DNA of 64,000 nt from Schizochytrium sp. TIO01 (Eukaryota; Sar; Bigyra; Thraustochytrida; Thraustochytriidae): the NCBI GenBank assembly GCA_004764695.1, contig SMSO01000025.1, positions 5,724,862 through 5,788,861 of the forward strand, given 5' to 3'. Of the stretch, positions 52,441 through 64,000 are shown in pieces (the first letter of the stretch is position 1; every line of letters starts with the position of its first letter). Under the pieces are notes generated by a model. That model had not been told where the DNA came from. It worked only from the letters and a program-made list of their open reading frames with translations, and made no database searches. The translations under genes and the position numbers were made by a program.

Positions 52441-54430
52441 AGCTTCTCGAAGGCCGTAATTCAATAGCCTAGGGACAACTTCTTTTCCGAGAAAGCCTTT
52501 CCAAGAAATTTTACATGCGTTAGTACCCCGTCCATCCATCCATCTTCTCAAGGATCTTTTGGACACCTTCTCGGTCTGGTTTTCCAGGCGTTTCGATAGT
52601 CTTCTGACTAGTTCTTTGACCTGTCCTCATTTCATGATTAGTGGTGCTTCGGTGCCGTACGAAAAGACTTTGTGTCCCTGCCGCTCTGACTCGATGCTCC
52701 ATAAGAATTGTACTTCTGTCAGTAGTGGAGTTGCCCTCAAGAATAGGAGAAAGCTTAAAGCAACACCTTTCCATCATCAACTCTCTCTGTGCTGAGACTT
52801 CACAGCAGTCTTATTAATCAGTGTTGCGCAACAGATGCCCCGAGTGTACAAACCCAGTGACGCTTTCTTCAGCGTTTTGTAGAGAATTCCGTTTCTGAAC
52901 GATGAGAGAAGACCTCTCAAAAGCGGCGGCTGAGGCAGAGTTTTCAGCAGTGTTGAACAGGTAAGTTCTCAAGAAGGAGTCCAATCTCCTGAGTTCGAAG
53001 CAGCAGGGAAGAAGATAGACCGGCGACGAGGGGGGCTTGTACACACGGGCATTTCAGCAGGTCCTCCCACTCCCGACTTGCTTAACAATGAATAGAGTCC
53101 CATGTACCGCGCCAGAGTTTCACATGGACCAAACTCTTCATTCAAGATTTGCTTTGAGTACGCCTAATTATTGAACTAGTAGTAGACTTGCTAGAACAAC
53201 AGTACTAGGTACCCACTGACCTGTTTAAAGTGACGAACGAACCAAAGTATTTACTTAAGCAAATCATTTTCCGATTATGTATTGTTTTCGATGTTTTTTA
53301 GCGCAATAGCCTGACTTGAGAGAAAAACAGCACCGGAAAACATATTTGCTAAGTGAAAACTGAATGAGTCGTTAATATTTAAAGATCCCAGGAGCAGAGA
53401 TGCGAGTGCCCCGTAGTGTCGACAATTTCAAAGAATATTTTGGCATAAAAAATGGGAAGACTTTTCTTTTGGGGAAAGGCAAGAATCATTTTATTTTCTA
53501 CGTATAGAAAAGGCAAACAGCTTGTAAAAGGAGATAAATGCAATACTGAATATTGGATAGAAGCTGACTATAGCATGAGTGGTTGGTTTTGTCTGGAGTA
53601 TATAGCCCCAAAATATTGTTGAAAGCCACAGTAAAGCATCGCATTCAAAATGCTGCCACTCTCGCCGACCTTGCACCTTTGACTCCTACAATTGGTGATT
53701 GATATGCAAACTTTGCGATGCTGCGTGCAAATAATTAAGTTGAATTAAAACACACAATGTCAATCCCTTCAACGAGTGAGCAATCTTGCCGTCGTATGCG
53801 CTGGAGGAAATTTAGATACTCACCAAAACAAAACTGCAAAACAATATTGGTAACCTTGGAGTTGCTTTGTTGATAAGCAAAGGTAAAAAAATAAACGGAG
53901 GAAAAAACATTCAACACCGGGGCTTCGCATGCAGTCCCCTATCATACTACTGACCCGGCCCTACGCGACTTTACTTCTCAGTGCGAATGAGATGAGGTGT
54001 TACCCGCGTGGTATGATCGAATGTACTCTCAGAATGGTGCATACTGTATATATACATAGTATTCAATGGGTTGTTGTTTACTTCTTACTTCTATGACTAT
54101 CTAGTTCATAGTAGGTAGTACTAAGGGGTAGTACTGCTAGAACCTCTGGAGCAATATCACTGGAGAAGATATTCCAGTAGTAGGCTTTACGAAATAGTAA
54201 TAGTCTTGAAAGAGCGAGAAAGAAAGGAGGTCAAGCACCGAGGCTTAGTAGGTAAGGTTAAGTTCAAACTAGTAAATATCCTTTTACTTCGAGAGCACTA
54301 AAGAGTATCTCCTTCTTAAGGAGAACCATAGTAACTCAGTAAGTATAAGAAAAACTTTTTTTTTCTGGAGTATCCAAGATCATTAAAATTAATGATGTTA
54401 TTGATATCAACTTTATCTTTACATTTTCAA
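52441..54430. other. gene-free stretch between the pseudogene and the element
   Basis: AT-rich, with TAGTA-type repeats near 54,105-54,140. Short open frames at 52,520-53,044 have no recognisable content. They could be further remnants of the upstream part of the decayed gene. Confidence 0.4.
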
Positions 54431-54517
54431 AACAGGACCTTGAATGGTACAGTATTAAACATCTTTATTTGGCCAAAAAATGGACATTTTGGTGGTCGTT
54501 TGTGTCAAAATTTAAAA
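54431..54517 (+). repeat. 87-bp direct repeat, left copy
   Basis: Identical to 62418-62504 over the first 20 and the last 59 bases; the 8 bases between differ. The two copies start 7,987 bp apart and have the same orientation. It lies 147 bp before the first gene of the compact cluster. Confidence 0.9.
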
Positions 54518-54663
54518 ACCCTATAAGAAAAAAGTTTTTCTGTAGCTAATGATGCTTAAGTCGACCATGATAGACTTTTTTTGGTATCCCGTTTTGGGTA
54601 TTGGGGCGGTGGGTTGAAACCATAAGTTGAAAACCAAATGTCTGCCAAAACACCAAACATCAA

Positions 54664-55944
54664 ATGAAAAACTTCAACGAGTTATTCGCCAAGTCACACA
54701 GGAAGACAGCTTTTTCAAGCTACCACCAAGGTAAACCAAATGACACCATGAAAGAAATGCTGGCATGGGAGTCGACAAATCCATCACTCAAAGGGAAAAA
54801 ATGCACAACCTGCAAAATATTGTTTGCCCAAGCAATAGTTAAATTAAGGTACTGCTGCGGTGCAAGGAAATGTCGTCTAGAACAATCCAAGAAAGAATTT
54901 GAAAAATCGACATTTGAAAAACAAGCGTTATCGGTAAAGGCAAAGCAAAAGCACATGTCGCGATCAAAGCAAGAAAAACTTGGTATTTCAATAAACAAAG
55001 CAAAGGGTCAGAAACGCCGTTATGACACCATGTCGGAATCCGAAAGAATAACTTTGCGACAACGCCAAAAAGACGGTATTGATCGTGCATCAAAGGATCC
55101 TGTAAAAAAACAAAAGAGACTCAACAACAGGTACGACAGGTTGAAAAGTGGTTTTGTTGTGCACAAACACCTTGTACAAACATCATGTGGAAAGACCGTG
55201 AGAGTGTGGACAAGGGGGTGGGAATATAGAACAATTCAGTTCCTTGTCGATGTCTTTACTGAAAAGGTGTTGTTCAGAGATTTCAAATTGAAGAATGATG
55301 TTTACATAGTGAGATTTGACAACCACGGTGTCTTCCTTGGGCCACATGATACTAGGGGTATTGATCCCAGTATTTTAAAAGCAGAATCAATCTATTTCGA
55401 AGAGCATGGCGAACTTCGCCATGATCTTGACCATCACTTTAAACTCAATAATTCTCACCAACGAAAAACCTTTGTTGATACTCTTGTCAAGCACTTTGAG
55501 ATTGACAATGTCGATTACATGAAGAGCCTAATCGAAGGGAAAACTCAGGTTGCCATTGAAACGAAAAGTTTCAAAAGGGCAGCGGTTCAAAAGGGCGTTG
55601 AGTGGGTCGAAATGATGTTGGCCAATGCTATTGCAGCGCTGGTTGCAGAATCAAACATGGTCTACTTCGTGTTCTGCTGGACTGAATCGAGTTTAACATT
55701 TTACAATGTCGACAGGCAAACAGCATCGTTAAAGAAACTCGGAAAGACAATCATGTTTCCAGACACTGGAAAGGATTATCAGCAATTGATCAAGTACCAC
55801 AAAGCTGCTTTTGAAGGGACAAGTATCGCCTGTCCAGAAGCGTTCACCACAACAAATTTGAAGAGTGCAAAACCAATTAAAAATGGCCATGTCGATACGG
55901 TTGGTAAGGATAGACTCCATATTACAATAAAACAAGAGTTTTAA
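54664..55944 (+). CDS. unknown Lys-rich protein with N-terminal Cys cluster, part of the compact element
   Basis: 426 codons; no family recognised. Residues 40-66 hold a likely zinc site: CTTC, then a pair of adjacent Cys in RYCCGARKCR. Residues 65-165 are very basic and helical (many Lys, Arg and Gln), as in DNA-binding arms. The rest (about 170-426) looks like a folded alpha/beta domain with several W, Y and F residues, an EEHGELRHDLDHHF stretch (a run of acidic and His residues that might bind metal) and a V-Y-F-V-F-C-W strand. It is convergent with the minus-strand genes and ends 28 bp from the next frame. Lys codons are mostly AAA, unlike the C/G-biased host genes. It may be a nuclease or element-specific DNA-binding protein, but nothing visible proves either. 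Confidence 0.7.
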   Translation: MKNFNELFAKSHRKTAFSSYHQGKPNDTMKEMLAWESTNPSLKGKKCTTCKILFAQAIVKLRYCCGARKCRLEQSKKEFEKSTFEKQALSVKAKQKHMSRSKQEKLGISINKAKGQKRRYDTMSESERITLRQRQKDGIDRASKDPVKKQKRLNNRYDRLKSGFVVHKHLVQTSCGKTVRVWTRGWEYRTIQFLVDVFTEKVLFRDFKLKNDVYIVRFDNHGVFLGPHDTRGIDPSILKAESIYFEEHGELRHDLDHHFKLNNSHQRKTFVDTLVKHFEIDNVDYMKSLIEGKTQVAIETKSFKRAAVQKGVEWVEMMLANAIAALVAESNMVYFVFCWTESSLTFYNVDRQTASLKKLGKTIMFPDTGKDYQQLIKYHKAAFEGTSIACPEAFTTTNLKSAKPIKNGHVDTVGKDRLHITIKQEF

Positions 55945-55972
55945 AAGTATAAAAGATCTTTTTATGTTAATT

Positions 55973-56185
55973 TTACAGTCGCAACTGCGACATTCTTTCA
56001 AGTTCTTGTTCGACGGCAACAATGTCGTTGTTGGATAGCACACCTGTGTAAAAATGTCGTGCAGAGGTGAAGAATGATGGGTGATTGGATCGTTTAATCC
56101 ATGTTCGGTACTTGACCCTGTGATGTGCAAGGGCAACTGTACCTGATCTTGCCAACGTTGTTGTCGTACTCGTATCATTCATCAT
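55973..56185 (-). CDS. possible small protein of the compact element
   Basis: 70 codons from the first ATG (the frame opens one GTG earlier). No family recognised: Thr-rich start, then a mixed basic stretch with several His, ending in a short predicted helix. The case for it is position. It fills the space between two better-supported frames, starts 37 bp after the stop of the zinc-finger gene and stops 28 bp from the convergent gene. A chance frame remains possible. Confidence 0.35.
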   Translation of the reverse strand: MMNDTSTTTTLARSGTVALAHHRVKYRTWIKRSNHPSFFTSARHFYTGVLSNNDIVAVEQELERMSQLRL

Positions 56186-56222
56186 CACTGATTTGTATTT
56201 TCTAAAATACCAAAAACAGTTT

Positions 56223-56621
56223 CTACATATGATTCCTTTTTTCCTTCACCTTGTAAAACTTCAGGTTCAAGCACTCATCAAACGTCTTTGGGCTGATGAT
56301 CCGTTCGACTTTTTCCGGATTCGCAATGTCATTGATTTGAAGAATTGCCATGATGGTTTCTCTTTTAATTCCTGAAACAATCTGTCGATGGCCCAAGTAT
56401 TGTAATCTTCGCTTCAGTTTGGTGACAAGCCTGTTGATCACATCTAATTCTCCTCTGACCTTGCTGTTGTCAGCGCTACAAGCTTTGCATTGCCGTTGTT
56501 GTTTTTGGACCCATGACAAGAAGAATTCGTCCTCACCTTTGTATTCGTTGCACTTATTGCAGAAAACCTCGTCATCGACATTCCGAAAAGACGGCTTCGG
56601 AACAATCTTGCAGTGAATCAT
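56223..56621 (-). CDS. small CxxC-CxxC zinc-binding protein of the compact element
   Basis: 132 codons with an ATG start. An N-terminal treble-clef-like site: CNKC near residues 21-24 and CKAC near 46-49, with a K-x-x-x-x-F-F element between them, a pattern seen in many small phage and mobile-element proteins and in HNH-type zinc knuckles. No HNH catalytic residues were seen. The C-terminal 80 residues are helical and basic. It starts 37 bp after the recombinase stop on the same strand, which suggests co-expression. It may be a DNA-binding accessory factor for the recombinase; that is inference. Confidence 0.6.
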   Translation of the reverse strand: MIHCKIVPKPSFRNVDDEVFCNKCNEYKGEDEFFLSWVQKQQRQCKACSADNSKVRGELDVINRLVTKLKRRLQYLGHRQIVSGIKRETIMAILQINDIANPEKVERIISPKTFDECLNLKFYKVKEKRNHM

Positions 56622-56658
56622 CGTTCAATCTTTGGTAATTTCGAAAAATCAATATATG

Positions 56659-58617
56659 TTATTCTTGAGTTGTTGCTTTAAATGTGTTCCATGTCGACGT
56701 ATCGATTTGACGAAGCATCGGCAGCCTTTTGCGTTCACCATTTACAAATGAAAACCAGTTTTGATAGCTGCCTCTGTTTGGTTTGCTTGGTGCAATGGAA
56801 CCTAAAAGTAAAATTCGGATCAGGTCCTTTCCAGCGGCCGTCGATTGCTTTAAACAGAAGGAATTCTGTGCCCCATCTCCTGCATCAATCAGCCTGGCTA
56901 TTTCAGGAAAATGATCGGCACATACCTGTGGAAAGTCATCTCCGTGTTTTCTTTCCTTGAGCTTGGAAACTAATGCTTCCAAAAGTTCCTTCGGGTTGCC
57001 CTTTTGTTTAATTTCCACTCGGGCCACTTTCCTCTTTGCATCTTGCAATTCCCTCTCCAATTCTCTCACACGTTTCAGCAATAACTTTGGGTCAGACTTT
57101 TGTTGTGCCTTGTTGGCATTGATCATGTGCTGCTCCAACTCTTTTTGAAAGCCAGTGTCAATGGCAATGTCGACGCCACTTTGCACAAACCCAGCAGCTG
57201 TTGCCAAGTAATGAACACGTTCCCAGTAAGAAATTGTTGACGCATTTGGTATTTTTACCCAAAAGGACCACATTGAATGAGGAGAATCGTCTTTGTTTTG
57301 TCGACCAGACATGAGATATGGTGCAGTACTATTCAATGCACGGTGTTTCATCAAACTGTAGTTCTGTGCTTGTGTATCGTGTGCCCAGCCAATATATTCT
57401 TGTCGTTCCTTGGATGTTACACCAAGCCCACCAAGCACATTTTCGCAAATGACCCTGAAGATGTGCAATCGTTTTCCCCCCAGTCCGTCTTGCATTCCAC
57501 ACGCAATCGCTACCGCGTGGAGGACGGCAATGTATCGACGTTGGACCATTTTGCAAAAGTTTACTGGATCCTGACCAGACTTTCGGTTGAACCCTCTCGC
57601 AAATGGCTCCACTCTGCATGTTGGATTTTGTCGAACTGAGTTGAAGTATGTTGCCAAATGAACCAAGGTGCAAAGTTGCGGATCCTTGTGTGGTACAATT
57701 CGTACATAAACGACCTTTTCCACGTTCCTCACCGATCCGCACTTCTTTTCAATGCGTCTTAAAAGAAGGCCCCCGTCAGCTTGCTCCGTAAAGTCCTCAA
57801 AACAAACGTTTGCACCAGTGATTGAACGCATGCCAGTGTACCGCAACAGAGAAGAGTAGGCCAGTGTTCCCAGTAATATCTCCTTTAGCTCCTTGTCGTT
57901 CTTGTTGGCAATGACGGCCATTTCATTGAAAGACGAAATTGCAACAGTTGCATGACCTTTTCTGTTGTTACCCACGGACTCTAAATGCTGTCGAAACTCT
58001 TCTGGTGCTACTGTTGACATGTACCTGACAATGCTCTTCAATTTTGGTTCCAGCACTTCAAATTGTGTTGTTTTCACCTGTTGCAGTTTGTTAAGCCGTG
58101 ATACCTTTTTTGGTTGCCATTGTTCCTTTTCCAATCTTTGAATATGTTGTTTCATTCGATCAGAAATGTTGATCCCCCAAGTGCGCCAAATTTGGACATA
58201 CAGCCGAACCGTATGAAACGCAGATGCTTGATGGCCTTTCGCTTTGAGGTAGTTTGACATAAATGAGTTGGCATATCCATTCACAAGCTCTGTATTGTCA
58301 ATTGCCCATCGTCGAAATTGATTCCAAAAGATTTCTGACTCAATGACACCCTGTCGTTTGGCAACGAAATCTGACAAGTCTCTGACGCATCGAAGCAATC
58401 GTTTCTCGTGTTTGGTGCTGGCATGGTAAAAGTCGCGATCGTTCAACAATGCCTCGATTTCTTGTTCTGCTGTTAGAGTGGAATCATTACTCTCAGTGTC
58501 GCTTCTACTACTACAACTTTGGTGGTGCTGCATCGTGCCTTTTTGGGTTTTGATTTTGCTTGTTGAAACAACAACAACATGACTTGGAGCGACCATGATC
58601 GACCCATAACGCCACAT
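56659..58617 (-). CDS. tyrosine recombinase, Crypton-like
   Basis: 652 codons from the first ATG; the frame opens eight codons earlier only with GTG. After an N-terminal SAM-like helical region (about 60-170) comes the catalytic domain. The Arg is in YTGMRS (R264); the H-x-x-R box is in LHIFRV (H385, R388); then GWAHDTQAQNYSLM gives the Trp and the Tyr nucleophile (W411, Y420). So the R, H-x-x-R, H/W and Y residues are all present and in order. A Lys/Arg/Glu coiled coil follows (about 505-535), and the last 35 residues (W-F-x-F-V-N-G...W-x-x-F-K) recall the GCR1-type DNA-binding tail of Cryptons. These enzymes cut and paste a circular DNA intermediate. The frame is intact, so the element may be active. 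A captain-type or virus-like integrase is the alternative. Confidence 0.78.
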   Translation of the reverse strand: MWRYGSIMVAPSHVVVVSTSKIKTQKGTMQHHQSCSSRSDTESNDSTLTAEQEIEALLNDRDFYHASTKHEKRLLRCVRDLSDFVAKRQGVIESEIFWNQFRRWAIDNTELVNGYANSFMSNYLKAKGHQASAFHTVRLYVQIWRTWGINISDRMKQHIQRLEKEQWQPKKVSRLNKLQQVKTTQFEVLEPKLKSIVRYMSTVAPEEFRQHLESVGNNRKGHATVAISSFNEMAVIANKNDKELKEILLGTLAYSSLLRYTGMRSITGANVCFEDFTEQADGGLLLRRIEKKCGSVRNVEKVVYVRIVPHKDPQLCTLVHLATYFNSVRQNPTCRVEPFARGFNRKSGQDPVNFCKMVQRRYIAVLHAVAIACGMQDGLGGKRLHIFRVICENVLGGLGVTSKERQEYIGWAHDTQAQNYSLMKHRALNSTAPYLMSGRQNKDDSPHSMWSFWVKIPNASTISYWERVHYLATAAGFVQSGVDIAIDTGFQKELEQHMINANKAQQKSDPKLLLKRVRELERELQDAKRKVARVEIKQKGNPKELLEALVSKLKERKHGDDFPQVCADHFPEIARLIDAGDGAQNSFCLKQSTAAGKDLIRILLLGSIAPSKPNRGSYQNWFSFVNGERKRLPMLRQIDTSTWNTFKATTQE

Positions 58618-58653
58618 GGCAGAACCTTTACCAATCGCCACCTACCTGTTACA

Positions 58654-58838
58654 CCGTCACGCCTCTTTATTGTATGGCAATGCCCCGTGACAGCTTGGTT
58701 CAAAACCATCATTTGACGGTGACAATTGTCGAAATGACAGTCCCCACCTTAGATCACGCAAACTGTCACGCACCATTGAACCATCACGCTTTGACGGCGT
58801 AACGTCACGCTGTCATTCTGCATCATGGCAAAGTGTCA
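58654..58838. repeat. cluster of TGTCAC/CGTGACA-type motifs upstream of the recombinase gene
   Basis: About ten short motifs in both orientations within 185 bp: CCGTCACGCC, CCGTGACAG, GACGGTGACA, ATGACAG, ATCACGCA, CTGTCACGC, CATCACGC, ACGTCACGC, CTGTCATTC and GTGTCAC. The segment lies between the stop of the methyltransferase gene and the start of the recombinase gene. It suggests repeated binding sites for an element protein (recombinase, zinc-finger protein or regulator). Confidence 0.7.
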
Positions 58839-58841
58839 CTA

Positions 58842-59366
58842 TCATTCTGTTGGAAAGTTGATGTCACGAGTTAGTCCAAGTCCCACACAAATCCATGCGA
58901 CATCGAACGATGCTGACTTACCTGCCCTTCCTGTTCTTGGGTCCAGGAAAGCACACCTCTTGCTATGAATGACCAACTGAACAGGGTGCTCCATACAGTA
59001 CTCTCGAAAGTACTTGGTGAACAACACTGGAGCTGGCAACAAGAGAGCGACATCGTGCATGCCTAGTGACTCGAGATGGCTCAAGATTTGTCTCTTGATG
59101 CTGAACGGTGGATTGCTCACCAACACCACTTTCATTCCTGGCGGTGGCACTGGAACAGTCTGCTTGAAAAAGTCGGCATGGTTCCCGTTAGTCACTTTAA
59201 AGCCTTGGCTTTGCATATGTTTTGTACTGTGACCACTGCCCACGAACGGCTCCCAGATGTAGTGGGTCGATCGATCAAGATGCTCCAACATCATGTTCAA
59301 ACTTCTAACTGGTGTTTCGTAGAGATCGTTTTGCTTTGGCTGTGCAGCTCTTGTGTATATTGACAT
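58842..59366 (-). CDS. DNA N6-adenine methyltransferase (phage Dam-like)
   Basis: 174 codons. An N-D-L-Y-E-T-P element (13-19) leads into the SAM-binding motif I, EPFVGSG (39-45). Catalytic motif IV, SNPPFS (84-89), is of the (D/N)PPF type that methylates adenine in DNA. A PAPVLF stretch follows, where phage enzymes carry their PL-like motif V. The size equals stand-alone phage Dam enzymes, and no target-recognition domain or restriction endonuclease is next to it. It is on the same strand as the recombinase, whose ATG lies 224 bp further on. Such enzymes are rare in nuclear genes but frequent in viruses and some mobile elements, so I take it as element cargo. The target site is unknown. Confidence 0.75.
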   Translation of the reverse strand: MSIYTRAAQPKQNDLYETPVRSLNMMLEHLDRSTHYIWEPFVGSGHSTKHMQSQGFKVTNGNHADFFKQTVPVPPPGMKVVLVSNPPFSIKRQILSHLESLGMHDVALLLPAPVLFTKYFREYCMEHPVQLVIHSKRCAFLDPRTGRAGKSASFDVAWICVGLGLTRDINFPTE

Positions 59367-59592
59367 TTGAGCGTCTTCATGGTCGCTGGCTTGTTTTGGA
59401 TATATGTTTCTTTCGACTCACGTTGCCTTCCTTCACCCACCTCTTCATACTGTCGGGGCTTCGGTGGAACCTATGAGGAGTGTTCGGTGAAATTATTTCT
59501 CCGACGAGAGCCACGGTGAAGAAAGGAGAAGCTCGTGTGCAGAGGTGGAACGACGAGCAACAGTCAACAGTTCTCAAACACTAGCGGGGAGG

Positions 59593-61089
59593 ATGGGCAC
59601 AACACAATCAGGTACTGCCGCGGGAGAGGGAGGAGTTGGTGGCGATGCCGCACCAGAGCAACCACGGACGATGGAGTCGATGATGAAGGCACTGCATGGC
59701 GATCCTGAGGTCGAGCGCCAAAGGGTCATCAGCCTGCTCGGGCTGGACGTTGGTGAAGGCAAAGACGAAGTCATTTGGCTGGACAAGAGTCTTGGGCTAC
59801 AGTCAAGGTGCTTCCTTGTCCGCGGAGAGCGATGGAAGGGCCGCGGCAAGCAACCGGTGGTGGATCCAACAGTTGGCACTGCCTTCGTTAAAGTGTTGCC
59901 AAGGTGGAACATCAAGGACATGATTGCTGATATCAGGAGGGCTGCACGGGACGATGCAGAAAAGGCCGCTCGGGCGTTGGGCAAGACAGAGGAGGAGGTG
60001 AAGGCCGCTGGCGAACAAGCTAGCGAGGAGGTTGACGTGGTGGAGTTTACGGAGCCATCGCTTCAGATGGTCCGAGAGCGACATGTATTGCGCGCCTGGC
60101 AGGCAGCTGAAGAGGCTGGTGAGCTTAAGCTACCTGAGGATTCGTTGCTGGTCATTCCAAGATTGTTTGACAACGTTTTCACAGGACCGGATAGCACAAA
60201 GGAAGAGGACAAGCCGACGATGTTGGTCTTTGAAGACTTGGTAGCGGCAGGATTTGAGGTTCGTAGTTACAAAGAGGCTATTTCTGTGGAAGACGCCGTC
60301 GCCGTCAGCGGTGCTCTAGCAGATCTTCACGCGGCATTGTGGAGAATCCGAGAGCGGCTTGGTTTTGGTGACTCAGTACTAGACATTGGGACAGCAGCAA
60401 CAGCTACTCCATCTGCGATAGCAAATAGAGAAAGCGGTCCGGGAAAGTACGAGAGGATGCTGAGACAGAGCCTGGATAAGTTCCGGCAGGTGCAAGTGTA
60501 CAAAAAACTCGTAGAAATGGTGGAGCCTATTGTCCCCGATATCGTCGCTGCTGCTGGAGACAAGGACGTGAAACCCCAAATGCTCTGCCATGGAGACCCA
60601 TGGGCACACAATGTGATGCTGCGGCGCGACATAACTACCGGAAAGGTGAACGGCGTGGCATTTGTGGATCTAGGCAATGTCAGAATGGCTCACCCGTTGG
60701 AGGACTTTTTTTGTTTTGTTGGAACAATGTCAAGCAGAGAGGTTCTACAACGAAAGGTCTTGACAAAATCTGCTGCCGCTTCCGAGTACGATTCAAGGCT
60801 TTTGAGTCAACTACCTCTTTCGGATTTGGGCTTCGAAGACGGTGTCTATTGTGACATTTTTTCTCCTCGGGCAGTAGAGCATGCAAGGGCGACCATGTTG
60901 GTTTACTTTTTCGACTCAGACATTTGGTGGGTAGCGAACTCAACCGGGAACCCAGAGCCCTCTGAGCGTCAGGCCGCTGCGTTTATGGCAACTGCAACTG
61001 TCCTAGGTAGATCTCAAAACACGTGTGCTGAGGTCGACACTAGTCACAGCGATATTAAAACCATGCCGCTACGGCAACGAAAGTATTGA
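59593..61089 (+). CDS. APH/choline-kinase-like phosphotransferase (CHK/EcKinase type)
   Basis: 498 codons from the first ATG (the open frame continues 16 codons upstream to a GTG, rejected). The N-terminal 30 residues are Gly/Ala-rich. The N-lobe has a likely ATP-binding Lys (AFVKVLPRW; K100) and LVFEDL (211-216), the hinge seen in the choline-kinase-like family. The C-lobe has the Brenner box CHGDPWAHN (332-340; catalytic Asp and Asn) and FVDLGNVRMAHPLEDFF (357-373), which replaces DFG. The family phosphorylates small hydroxylated compounds (choline, aminoglycosides, ecdysteroids). The substrate here is unknown. It is divergent from the methyltransferase gene (226-bp spacer). Its C/G-richer codons look like host genes, so it may not belong to the element. 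Confidence 0.75.
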   Translation: MGTTQSGTAAGEGGVGGDAAPEQPRTMESMMKALHGDPEVERQRVISLLGLDVGEGKDEVIWLDKSLGLQSRCFLVRGERWKGRGKQPVVDPTVGTAFVKVLPRWNIKDMIADIRRAARDDAEKAARALGKTEEEVKAAGEQASEEVDVVEFTEPSLQMVRERHVLRAWQAAEEAGELKLPEDSLLVIPRLFDNVFTGPDSTKEEDKPTMLVFEDLVAAGFEVRSYKEAISVEDAVAVSGALADLHAALWRIRERLGFGDSVLDIGTAATATPSAIANRESGPGKYERMLRQSLDKFRQVQVYKKLVEMVEPIVPDIVAAAGDKDVKPQMLCHGDPWAHNVMLRRDITTGKVNGVAFVDLGNVRMAHPLEDFFCFVGTMSSREVLQRKVLTKSAAASEYDSRLLSQLPLSDLGFEDGVYCDIFSPRAVEHARATMLVYFFDSDIWWVANSTGNPEPSERQAAAFMATATVLGRSQNTCAEVDTSHSDIKTMPLRQRKY

Positions 61090-61145
61090 TTCTCTTTTGA
61101 TTACAAGCAATGTAAAATGATTTTTTTGTGCAATAATATCTATTC

Positions 61146-61388
61146 TTAGACCAAATCTTCTGCGATGGACTCAACCGATGGAGCATGCACTTGTCCATCT
61201 GAACTGTCCCGCACGAGTTGTGGTAGTTCCTGTCGAAAATTCCGCGCAGCCTCTGAGTTCAGGTCATCAGCAAAGTACTTTTTGTAGAGCGCATAAGCAC
61301 CAGCAGTCATCAGTCCCTTCAAGAGAATCGACGCGTGAACTGCCAAGTCGACCCCAGCCTTGGTCAACTCTTCTGAAGGAGAAGACAT
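61146..61388 (-). CDS. small protein with one hydrophobic segment, unknown
   Basis: 80 codons with an ATG start. No family recognised. Residues 12-35 form an Ala/Leu-rich helix (VDLAVHASILLKGLMTAGAY) that could cross or lie on a membrane, followed by a charged tail ending ESIAEDLV. It converges on the kinase gene (56 bp between stops) and shares a divergent promoter region with the dynamin fragment. Confidence 0.45.
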   Translation of the reverse strand: MSSPSEELTKAGVDLAVHASILLKGLMTAGAYALYKKYFADDLNSEAARNFRQELPQLVRDSSDGQVHAPSVESIAEDLV

Positions 61389-61846
61389 CTTCGCAACAGC
61401 GCCAGATTAAAAAAAACAAGCGTTGCCACGTCGCTCTTCACGATGCGCAAAATGGAACAGGTCCACAGAGCGGAAGGTCAATGTTCAACCAACCTACTTG
61501 TGATGATGCTGATGAAACCAACCTTCCAATCGATTTATTAGTCCCCAAACTTGTTCTGATGAGCTCAGCTATGGGCTTGCCCAACCACTTCGTGTCCGTC
61601 TCGTGGTCCTTGCCCGCTCACCCTCTCCGAAGCGCTGCCTGCTTACCTTCCCTTCCCTTCTTCGAGTTTTCGTGTGCACAACGTCGGCTTTTTCAGTTTT
61701 CCCGAAATTTTGGCATTAGTTACTCCGGAGTTGAGGAGAGGATGGACGGAGAGAAAGGCACTGCGACGGACGCTCAACGAGAGAGTGAGCGAGCGGAGGT
61801 GGCGACAGACACGCAGCGCGGCCAGTGAATAGAGACGAAAAACAAG
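61389..61846. other. divergent promoter region
   Basis: 458 bp between the small minus-strand gene and the dynamin-like frame. Open frames crossing it have no domain. Confidence 0.5.
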
Positions 61847-62158
61847 ATGGCCGCTCGTCCCGATGATGAGCTTTCCAAGAGGTTTGACGAGCACGTGAAG
61901 CCCCTTTTGGCAATCAACGACAAACTCCGAAAGCTAACAAAACTTGAGGATGATATCAACACGTCGACGATCGTGGCTGTTGGAGACCAGTCGCACGGAA
62001 AGAGCTCCGTGATCGAAGCCCTTAGCGGTGTTCTTTTGCCGCGTGGACAAGGTATGAAAACCAAGCTGCCCTTGAGTCTACATCTCCGTGATGCAGCAGA
62101 GGAGAAGGCAGTGATACGCTTTGCCGGCTGGCATACAAATTGCGCTGTGCTTTGTTAA
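61847..62158 (+). pseudogene. truncated dynamin-family GTPase (N-terminal fragment)
   Basis: 103 codons with an ATG start. Residues 1-94 match the start of a dynamin GTPase domain: a helix with F-x-x-x-V-x-P-L-L, then VAVGDQSHGKSSVIEALSG (P-loop G-D-Q-S-x-G-K-S-S), then LLPRGQGMKTKLPLSLHLRD with the switch-I Thr. After RFAG the frame leaves the family and stops at once. A full dynamin has 600-900 residues, and the DxPG, NKxD, middle and GED regions are all missing. A piece that looks like the next part of the domain lies immediately downstream on the other strand. So the gene was cut and partly inverted. An unrecognised intron is a weaker alternative. Confidence 0.65.
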
Positions 62159-62265
62159 TTTCCGCCGCAATTTCTTGACCGCTAGTGGTTTTGATCTGTT
62201 CTTCCATGTCCATGTTTCACAACGTTAGGTTCTGCCTCAACTTTAAGCTTCACGGTTTGTGGAGA
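62115..62265 (-). pseudogene. possible inverted dynamin fragment
   Basis: On the minus strand, KLKVEAEPNVVK and, one base out of frame, a stretch with EIAAEINKAQRNL resemble the segment that follows switch I in dynamins (E-I-x-x-x-I-x-x-A-Q). It is the part expected to follow the plus-strand fragment, but it points the other way. The join lies within TTTGCCGGCTGGCA, which contains the palindrome GCCGGC. The match is short and rests on pattern memory. Confidence 0.4.
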
Positions 62266-62417
62266 TTACTAGCAGGTTAAATTTTCATATTCCGATTACT
62301 AACTAACATGTAACGTATCATGTTTAATGAACATTTAGGAACATCTAGAAACATTAGTTGTTCTGAGATTACATTAGTGCGGTTCCCCTCGACATTGGTC
62401 GGTTCCCTTACAATGGG
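62266..62417. other. spacer before right direct repeat
   Basis: AT-rich, with no gene seen. A short imperfect duplication of AACAT-TAG-type words is visible near 62,326-62,356. Confidence 0.4.
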
Positions 62418-62504
62418 AACAGGACCTTGAATGGTACCATCAATGACATCTTTATTTGGCCAAAAAATGGACATTTTGGTGGTCGTTTGTGTCAAAATTT
62501 AAAA
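62418..62504 (+). repeat. 87-bp direct repeat, right copy
   Basis: The same sequence as 54431-54517 apart from an 8-base stretch. It lies between the broken dynamin gene and the leucine-rich-repeat gene. Confidence 0.9.
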
Positions 62505-62607
62505 TCAGACCATGGGCGCACCTCTGTCATCGACTTGCAGCTTTACGTCCAGCAGGTTCGAAACCTTCTGCAACGACTGGGGCTGCGCCACGAGCTTAGC
62601 TGAAGGG

Positions 62608-62614
62608 ATATAAG
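62608..62614 (+). promoter_or_regulatory. TATA-like box of the leucine-rich-repeat gene
   Basis: GGATATAAGC places a TATAA about 43 bp before the start codon at 62656. Confidence 0.45.
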
Positions 62615-62655
62615 CACGCGTACGCTGGTTCAGGTATAGATCTTTACTTGCTGCG

Positions 62656-62732
62656 ATGTCGGACCACCCAAGTGTTGTCGCTGCCCTTGAACAGCTTCAG
62701 AATGGTGCTACTATTTTAGAGTAAGTTAACAC

Positions 62733-62765
<33 letters not shown>

Positions 62766-63136
62766 ATTGCTTTGCACGGTGTTGCTTTTGTTGTTATTGT
62801 ATTGCAAGTTTATGCAATGGCTGGTTTGTTTGTTTGTTTGTTTGATGGATGGATGGATGGATGGATGGATGAATGGATAAGTTGTCTGTTTGAGTGAGTA
62901 TACATCCATCGAACAAAGAGCCAAATGACAACACAACAAAAATAAATCCTGAAACCCAACCTAGATCACTCACGTCCATGCATGCATGCGTGCATCTATT
63001 GCAATATGTAACGTGTAATATATTCCTTGCCATCATTCAATCAAATCGACAGTCTTGAAAGCAACTATATCGGCGACGAGGGCGCCAAGGCAGTGGCTGC
63101 TGCGCTGAAAGAGAACCGGTCGCTGACATCACTATC
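62656..63136 (+). CDS. leucine-rich-repeat (RNI-like) gene, first two exons; 3' end not found
   Basis: Exon 1 (62656-62720) encodes MSDHPSVVAALEQLQNGATIL plus two bases. Intron 1 (62721-63052) begins GTAAGT and ends CGACAG. Exon 2 (63053-63136) is exactly 84 bp, 28 codons, in phase 2 at both ends. It encodes one ribonuclease-inhibitor-type repeat (L-E-S-N-Y-I-G-D-E-G-A-K-A-V-A-A-A-L) and is followed by GTAAGT. So one exon equals one repeat, as in NLRC3/RNI-like proteins. No further repeat exon could be found up to the window end: the gene either continues beyond it with a long intron or is broken. The function is probably protein binding. Confidence 0.65.
62801..62953. repeat. duplicated intron block, copy A (with TTTG and GATG tandem repeats)
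   Basis: Inside intron 1. It shares with 63222-63337 the words TTGCAAGTTTATGCAAT, GTTGTCTGTTTGAGTGAG, TATACATCCATCGAACAAAG and AAATGACAACACAACAAA. Copy A is longer because its TTTG and GATG arrays have more units. Confidence 0.9.
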
Positions 63137-63221
63137 GTAAGTTGTCTACGCAACACCGCAGCTCGTGGACTTGTTTGTACATGATGGTTGGTTTCTTGTT
63201 TGGTGGGTCGGTCGGTGTTGT

Positions 63222-63337
63222 TTTGCAAGTTTATGCAATCACTTGTTTGTTTGATGGATGGATGCGTTGTCTGTTTGAGTGAGTATACATCCATCGAACA
63301 AAGATCAAAATGACAACACAACAAAGATAAATGCTGA
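63222..63337. repeat. duplicated intron block, copy B
   Basis: Inside the second intron of the leucine-rich-repeat gene, same orientation as copy A. The unique words match nearly exactly, and only the tandem-repeat lengths differ. Confidence 0.9.
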
Positions 63338-64000
63338 GGTATCAGTACTTGCATGATAGCTGATGTTTGACACCATGGCATAATCGCTGTTGTGGTGTAA
63401 CACTGCATGTGATGCACCCATGATAAGAAACGAAGTGAACAGAATAAAGCAAAGGCGACAGCAGTTCCGAATCAACCTGATTCGACCTACAAGATCACGA
63501 TCTGTCCAAAGACAAGAACCCACTCTAGCCTCAACACCAACTAAGAACAACTATCTCTGACATGATAATCTCTAGGTAATCGCAAACCATGTTTAAGTAA
63601 GTATAGAGACGTTTTCTATGTTTAAGTTCTTCAATGGAACAGAGCAGCTGAGGGAATGCGGCGTCTTGTAACGGTTGACGTATTTATGAAAGCGGTCTGA
63701 TGGTTAAAAACTTCATCTTATCCAAGGTGAGACCCTGAATGAAATATTTTCGTATGGGATATTATTGCAGATCATCAGAAAAATTGGAGATCATTTTTTT
63801 TGTATTGGTGTGGTTCTAGTTCAGAAAAGATTCATATAGGACATTCATTTATGTTAAAAAGAAAGATATAGGTAGGCATATAATCATAGCACTTTATTCT
63901 AACTTCAAGTCCATTAGTCCGACTGTGTAGGTCACAAAAGCTTCACTTAAAAAGATTCACAACCCATCCTTGTATACTGTACTTGCTTGCAAACCATTCT
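63338..64000. other. right end, no gene seen
   Basis: Probably intron or 3' flank of the leucine-rich-repeat gene. No further repeat exon or other frame is recognised. Confidence 0.4.

Follow-up and report, generated by a model that had tools for sequence, protein, structure and literature searches.

Cryptons have no inverted repeats, carry terminal direct repeats of 4-6 bp, and are proposed to pass through a circular intermediate (PMC3212892; this and the other papers below are cited from the parts available to us). Starships, which range from 15 to 700 kb, are characterised by a 5' DUF3435 captain and cargo (PMC12134995). Mariners integrated in viruses carry a putative endonuclease and a methyltransferase together with their transposase (PMC3627910), and a polinton-like virus has been described with an HNH protein and an adenine methyltransferase, for which its authors suggest restriction-modification (PMC12220804). 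We have analysed a stretch of 64,000 nucleotides from the thraustochytrid Schizochytrium sp. TIO01, positions 5724862-5788861 of contig SMSO01000025.1 (C24), which is called the window here and supplies all coordinates for which no other contig is named. We judge it probable that this window contains a 7,987-bp tyrosine-recombinase element, Crypton-like and with cargo, which encodes its own adenine-type methyltransferase and is probably young and still functional.

The mobility of this element is shown by its anatomy: its outer boundaries, the empty sites, and the left end of a second copy. A first-pass annotation of the window had proposed that a block of five closely packed reading frames was an intact mobile element that combines a tyrosine recombinase with a methyltransferase of its own. 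The empty sites and the second copy, on contig C13, bear out the mobile element, but the five-gene block is not the whole of it. The insertion extends 3.1 kb further to the right, as far as 62504/62505, and also contains a kinase gene, a small open reading frame (ORF), and a fragment of a dynamin gene, while a 173-bp unit precedes the block. Neither these additional 3.1 kb nor the 87-bp direct repeat present at both ends had been noticed.

An insert of 8,161 bp (54345-62505, one T being ambiguous) is absent at paralogous loci, where both flanks adjoin directly. The empty site reads CAGTAAG-TCAGACC, with the hyphen at the junction, and in the window the 8,161 bp sit between the two halves. Thirteen paralogous loci were inspected, nine from a search with a 4.6-kb query and four picked because their listed match starts at the junction; they are the best-scoring or junction-starting loci among the 410 matches reported for that query. 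Three are uninformative, as the match is confined to window sequence from 63,338 on. All 10 informative loci are empty and lack both the insert and the 87-bp repeat; the junction is at the identical base in seven and shows a small indel or divergence in three (L062, L063, and L069). In six of the first nine loci, the sequence left of 54344 is followed directly by that right of 62502 or 62517, and the four that were added have the same arrangement. L067 is the empty site most similar to the window; beside the junction, their identity is 99.0% over 300 bp and 99.3% over 271 bp, and this near-identity suggests that the insertion is recent.

We read 54345-62505 as two tandem units, a short sibling unit, O1, and the full element, O2, which would share an 87-bp right terminus. 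O1 (54345-54517, 173 bp, plus strand) consists of an 86-bp left part starting ATAAGAAAAAC, followed by the first copy of the 87-bp repeat (54431-54517, plus strand), with its TAAAA end at 54513-54517. The left edge of O1 comes from the empty sites, and its right edge is the repeat that it has in common with the full element. O2 (54518-62504, plus strand) has TAAAA on either side and ends in the second copy of the repeat (62418-62504, plus strand; TAAAA at 62500-62504), which adjoins TCAGACC, the host flank of the empty sites. The two copies of the repeat are 93% identical, with all differences within one stretch of about 9 bp. The second copy of the element, on contig C13, matches 478 bp (54513-54990) without a mismatch and has unrelated sequence upstream of 54513. 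The match is 481 bp overall, and its sole mismatch, at 54512, is outside the element. Because the C13 copy begins where the first repeat ends, the full element starts at 54513/54518 and ends at 62504; its left edge is thus set by the C13 copy, and its right edge by the 10 informative empty sites. The search for the block at other loci, as had been proposed, gave a partial copy with a different flank as well as the empty sites. Genome-wide searches, which covered 64 Mb in 37 contigs, found two copies of the 87-bp repeat at E (expectation value) ≤ 1, both in the window, and a query of 54340-54440 matched only itself at the same threshold. On C13, the run of N (below 139,148; L013 1-4648) would be about 69 kb if the reported frame length is taken at face value, and the 23,122-residue 'open frame' at the C13 copy is an artefact of this run.

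TAAAA is found at the left end of the element, both in the C13 copy and at the tandem junction, and at its right end. The tandem junction, CAAAATT-TAAAA-ACCCTATAAG, has the sequence expected of a circle junction. Terminal inverted repeats were not found, the left 300 bp scoring against the reverse-complemented right 300 bp like shuffled sequences, and there is no direct repeat between left and right beyond that of shuffles. No perfect target-site duplication was found at the insertion, no terminal hairpin is clearly stronger than shuffles (z from -1.3 to +1.0), and no exact 33-base piece of the 87-bp terminus was found in viral contigs. We also considered the 87-bp repeats themselves as a target-site duplication and rejected this, since they differ within a single internal block, the insertion seems to be recent, and no such repeat adjoins the C13 copy.

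The five core frames are separated by gaps of 28, 37, 37, and 224 bp, exactly as annotated before. The tyrosine recombinase (56659-58617, minus strand) has 652 residues from the ATG at 58617, and its open frame extends upstream as far as a GTG at 58641. At least 19 metagenomic homologues were found, with identity down to 34% (8000 candidates scored). The catalytic R, HxxR, W, and Y that had been recognised in the window protein are conserved in the family along with a lysine: R272, K300, H393, R396, W419, and Y428 (numbering from the GTG at 58641) are present in 19 of the 20 sequences in the alignment, and the sole exception, P0019, is a shorter protein that departs from the family in that part. 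In Pfam, the window recombinase matches NDC10_II with 19.1 bits (the cut-off is 26.3), and sub-threshold matches to NDC10_II occur in 5 of the 20 sequences (best E 5e-4). The Phage_integrase profile aligns across the catalytic domain in three of the 20, likewise below threshold (E 0.009-0.03), while Striatin, a coiled-coil family, matches 11. Pfam scans of the 20 members gave no match to DUF3435, nor to the GCR1_C domain of CryptonF at E 0.1; CryptonS, CryptonA, and CryptonI are also without GCR1_C (PMC3212892). PDB sequence searches matched no recombinase, and no relatives were found in IMG/VR viral contigs or GTDB genomes. The homologue P0013 has a weak match on contig C31, with 28% identity across some 110 residues of its coiled-coil part; it was set aside by eye as a coiled coil. 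On C33 (131896-134274, minus strand; L014 2597-4975), 28 residues are 75% identical to the C-terminus of the recombinase; the match adjoins a fragment of a Herpes_ori_bp-type helicase (E 4e-12) and ORFs that look primase-like by eye. This stretch is perhaps a decayed relative that formerly carried replication genes.

Upstream of the recombinase is a spacer of 224 bp (58618-58841, minus strand) with a GTCAC/GTGAC array. It has six such sites, with 0.26 expected, and variants besides, and a 10-nucleotide unit, AMYRTCACGC, occurs in it four times. GTCAC is the most enriched of the 512 5-mers in the spacer, with P = 4e-7 before correction, for a site that was spotted first and counted afterwards. 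The densest 224-nucleotide stretch of the 64-kb window, scanned in steps of 10, has seven sites from 58651 and overlaps the spacer. These putative sites may be bound by a protein of the element or may be a methylation target.

The DNA methyltransferase (58842-59366, minus strand, 174 residues) is of the adenine type by motif, with the EPFVGSG and SNPPFS sequences that had been pointed out at first. It matches phrog_799, a phage DNA-methyltransferase family, at E 9.9e-25, and a metagenomic search gave 39 homologues. In a tree, it groups with P0023 and P0021 (95/88) inside a metagenomic cluster, and the two other copies of the family in the genome lie apart from it on long branches. An alignment search found 37 IMG/VR loci, which are distant (20-33% identity), and the three IMG/VR methyltransferases used in the tree group with P0058, away from the family of the window. 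The second member of the family in the genome is on C31, at about 5919.3-5927.7 kb (L011 1299-9732), among dense uninterrupted ORFs, one for an astacin protease (E 4e-41) and several for proteins that match nothing in Pfam clearly; two ORFs of this cluster had no relatives in IMG/VR. The third, on C13 at about 4867.2-4871.1 kb (L012 4661-8577), is beside a 635-residue ORF whose C-terminal part weakly matches protein kinases (E 1.6e-5) and whose N-terminal part recalls Crinkler-type nucleases by eye.

Do the core genes recur together, as the first-pass annotation asked? Homologue searches covered the recombinase, the methyltransferase, and ORF1 of the five core genes. Homologues of the recombinase and the methyltransferase occur on metagenomic contigs of equal size, 3415 and 3589, and those of the recombinase and ORF1 on contigs of equal size, 15088. 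In a test with jittered sizes, 0.08 shared sizes are expected for the first pair, with P = 0.003 for two or more, and P = 0.002 for one or more for the second pair. The equal contig sizes suggest, indirectly, that the core genes are linked in metagenomes.

Besides the indirectness of this linkage, several observations weigh against our reading of the locus. No contig size is common to the homologues of the methyltransferase and ORF1. The methyltransferase family occurs twice more in the genome, on C31 and C13, with no tblastn match to the window recombinase in about 10 kb around each copy, so this family is not tied to recombinases; the shared sizes speak for genes that travel together, and these two copies against it. 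All Pfam matches of the recombinase are under the curated cut-offs. The label Crypton-like suits the mode of action but is not a statement of membership, no family match being above cut-off. One complete copy of the element is readable; the other, on C13, is interrupted by a run of N beyond its first 478 bp, which leaves its right end unseen. The genome search passes over very common words, and its rare-copy counts are of copies found rather than proof of rarity. The empty sites are paralogues rather than alleles. The dating is loose because L067 is just 88.8% identical over the longer left flank of 818 bp. Finally, the target on C24 (CAG-TAAG-TCAGACC) has TAAG in place of TAAAA, and the core is therefore seen on the element side only.

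What is the function of ORF1? This gene (54664-55944, plus strand) encodes 426 residues with a Cys-rich N-terminus and a C-terminal domain with a D/E...ExK pattern, making it a candidate nuclease of PD-(D/E)XK type. Three metagenomic homologues were found; E299-x-K301 is kept in all four sequences, and position 281 is acidic (D, D, D, and E), a combination known from PD-(D/E)XK nucleases. The predicted model places ExK on a strand between helices. However, it is of low confidence, with a mean pLDDT (predicted local distance difference test) score of 54 and 58-88 by block over residues 261-400, and its strand order differs from the textbook one. Searches of Pfam, PHROG, and further libraries gave no family match for ORF1, its cysteines included, and no relatives were found in IMG/VR viral contigs. 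ORF3 (56223-56621, minus strand, 132 residues) is a CxxC...CxxC zinc-finger protein of HNH/endonuclease VII type by weak PHROG matches (unknown family, E 1.7e-4; HNH endonuclease, E 2.1e-4; endonuclease VII, E 0.02). The description of ORF1 and ORF3 as two zinc-finger proteins relied on their cysteine clusters; ORF3 has these weak matches, and ORF1 has none. The remaining core frame, a small ORF (55973-56185, minus strand, 70 residues), is an open frame only and has no Pfam match.

It is possible, though we lean against it, that the methyltransferase acts with ORF1, and perhaps also ORF3, as a restriction-modification-like pair directed against rival DNA or stabilising the element. The invariant ExK, the acidic residue 281, and the predicted position of the motif argue for such a pair; the missing nuclease family match, the quality and strand order of the model, and the failure of the ORF1 and methyltransferase homologues to share a contig size argue against it. 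There are precedents in the Mariners with an endonuclease and a methyltransferase (PMC3627910) and in the polinton-like virus with an HNH protein and an adenine methyltransferase (PMC12220804).

The two-unit structure also has an alternative, which we consider unlikely: the 8,161 bp could be a single element in which the 87-bp repeats are subterminal recombinase-binding arms, and the C13 copy would then lack the first 173 bp. It is favoured by the fact that the left 86 bp and the 87-bp repeat are found nowhere else as an independent unit, and by how little O1 and O2 resemble each other at their left ends. They share ATAAGAAAAA..TTTTT (17 aligned nucleotides) there, but 12 of 2000 shuffles reach this score, and so do some low-complexity stretches elsewhere in the window, a further point against the tandem reading. 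Because of this weakness, that reading draws mostly on the right termini and on the left end of the C13 copy. With the same TAAAA, the C13 copy begins just where the first 87-bp repeat ends, which speaks against a single element. Furthermore, the repeats differ in one internal block despite a seemingly recent insertion, as would two different units, and this block appears to fit two distinct units better than a decayed duplication.

To the right of the core genes is the cargo. It comprises an EcKL/APH-like kinase gene (59545-61089, plus strand; 514 residues from a GTG, with an in-frame ATG at 59593) with Pfam matches to PF02958 (E 4e-18) and PF01636 (E 2e-7), an 80-residue open frame without a Pfam match (61146-61388, minus strand), and the 5' fragment of a dynamin gene (61847-62158, plus strand), which is broken after about 95 codons and matches Dynamin_N at E 2e-11. 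No second copy of the kinase was found in the genome at E ≤ 0.001. The dynamin fragment is 91% identical in amino acid sequence, over 89 residues, to a resident dynamin on C13 (L070), and three further dynamin-like places in the genome are more distant from it. Its nonsynonymous divergence from the resident gene is low (dN 0.05-0.07), its synonymous divergence is saturated (dS 1.7-4.4), and 46 of 60 differences are at third positions. Because low dN is combined with saturated dS, the fragment was part of a working gene during its divergence and broke off later. Its source may be an old paralogue or, as we think more likely, another species. The GC content at first codon positions (GC1) is 0.62 for the cargo, 0.55-0.63 for ten host ORFs of the window, and 0.44-0.51 for the core genes. 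About 3 kb of host-type cargo was probably picked up in another host lineage.

Could the mobile unit instead be the five-gene core alone, at about 54.5-59.4 kb, with the kinase-dynamin segment as host DNA or a separate insertion? Core and cargo do differ in overall composition (GC 0.40-0.48 and 0.50-0.53), and the equal contig sizes are known for core genes, which are the only ones searched for homologues. However, the paralogous empty sites lack all of the 8,161 bp, and the 87-bp repeat that ends at 54517 recurs as the right terminus, at 62504; comparison of the window with itself gives no terminus-like repeat near 59.4 kb. We regard a core-only unit as distinctly unlikely. That these are ordinary, immobile host genes of a repeat-rich chromosomal island is consistent with the few genomic copies, one complete and one partly visible, but is highly improbable given the 10 empty paralogous sites, the different flank of the second copy, and the shared termini, since the empty sites would have to be deletions, all at nearly one base.

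The host sequence beside the insertion has features of its own. A host 5S ribosomal RNA (rRNA) gene (53906-54024, minus strand; Rfam RF00001, 96.5 bits) is outside the element, 320 bp away from the insertion. 5S genes are present in nine of the 10 empty-site loci, and none was found in the L013 stretch that flanks the C13 copy; we make no claim that insertion prefers 5S genes. From 62505 to 64000, the right flank belongs to a large repeat family near a 5S rRNA gene, with units of about 385 bp that look like leucine-rich repeats by eye. Many of the listed matches among the 410 reported genome-wide are near contig ends.

The mechanism that we propose for the full element, O2, is as follows. The recombinase would cut at the short TAAAA core at both ends, the element would leave as a circle, and the circle would integrate elsewhere, with no true target-site duplication. 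At the window locus, the element would have integrated into the right end of a related 173-bp unit, giving the two tandem units. The methyltransferase would mark the DNA of the element, for protection from its own or other nucleases, for control of the recombinase, or for both; the GTCAC array is in the spacer upstream of the recombinase. A bolder proposal, which we put forward as a rather improbable one, is that the element is a protist counterpart of the fungal Starships, with a self-contained methylation/cleavage pair made up of the methyltransferase and a PD-(D/E)XK-like ORF1, tandem accretion at its own att sites, and whole host genes ferried between species. The saturated dynamin fragment would, as part of the same proposal, be the trace of a previous host.

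What is new here is the combination of a recombinase, a methyltransferase, a possible nuclease, and cargo in a protist element; sets of transposase, nuclease, and methyltransferase are already known. Judged by titles or abstract openings, with subscription journals largely outside the scope, none of the papers listed for tyrosine-recombinase elements with a methyltransferase describes the present gene set. By the same measure, it does not appear in the papers listed for Starship, Crypton, or other tyrosine-recombinase elements with cargo, or for Cryptons in diatoms, nor among the 15 of 292 matches listed for thraustochytrid transposons. A survey of adenine methylation in eukaryotes does not mention Cryptons or tyrosine recombinases in the part available (PMC12695648). 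The earlier statement that no element with this set is described is uncontradicted by these searches, although the Mariners (PMC3627910) and the polinton-like virus (PMC12220804) introduced above come near it.

In the text available, cargo-carrying tyrosine-recombinase transposons are described from Pezizomycotina fungi (PMC12134995), and the locus studied here provides a small, bounded example from a protist. In the manner of giant fungal transposons, the element may carry genes from one microbial eukaryote to another. With 10 empty sites and a partial second copy, it is a tractable system for the pick-up of genes, the crossing of species, and the role of a transposon-borne methyltransferase. 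Since its ends are placed within a few bases, circle formation and integration can be assayed directly.

How does the element compare with the known systems? Among eight ORFs scanned, no Pfam family of DDE transposases was matched, nor any polymerase, capsid, packaging ATPase, or protease family. As in the virus-integrated Mariners, a transposase-type enzyme, a putative endonuclease, and a methyltransferase are combined in one small element; those elements use a Mariner transposase, and no cargo is described for them in the text available, whereas the present one has a tyrosine recombinase and cargo (PMC3627910). It resembles polinton-like viruses with a YREC integrase in having a tyrosine recombinase without target-site duplication, but these viruses are 14-40 kb and the element is 8 kb (PMC12220804). 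With Starships, it shares a tyrosine recombinase and accessory host-type genes within defined boundaries; the Starship captain is at the 5' edge of 15-700 kb, while the recombinase here is in the middle of 8 kb (PMC12134995). As in Cryptons, a tyrosine recombinase serves for mobility, there are no terminal inverted repeats, and no true target-site duplication is seen; the terminal direct repeat of Cryptons is 4-6 bp, and the element has TAAAA, seen on the element side (PMC3212892). Non-autonomous relatives exist in both cases, and some Cryptons carry one extra gene, for a C48 peptidase (PMC3212892). Unlike Cryptons, the element has a methyltransferase, ORF1, ORF3, host-type cargo, and a long, conserved right terminus of 87 bp.

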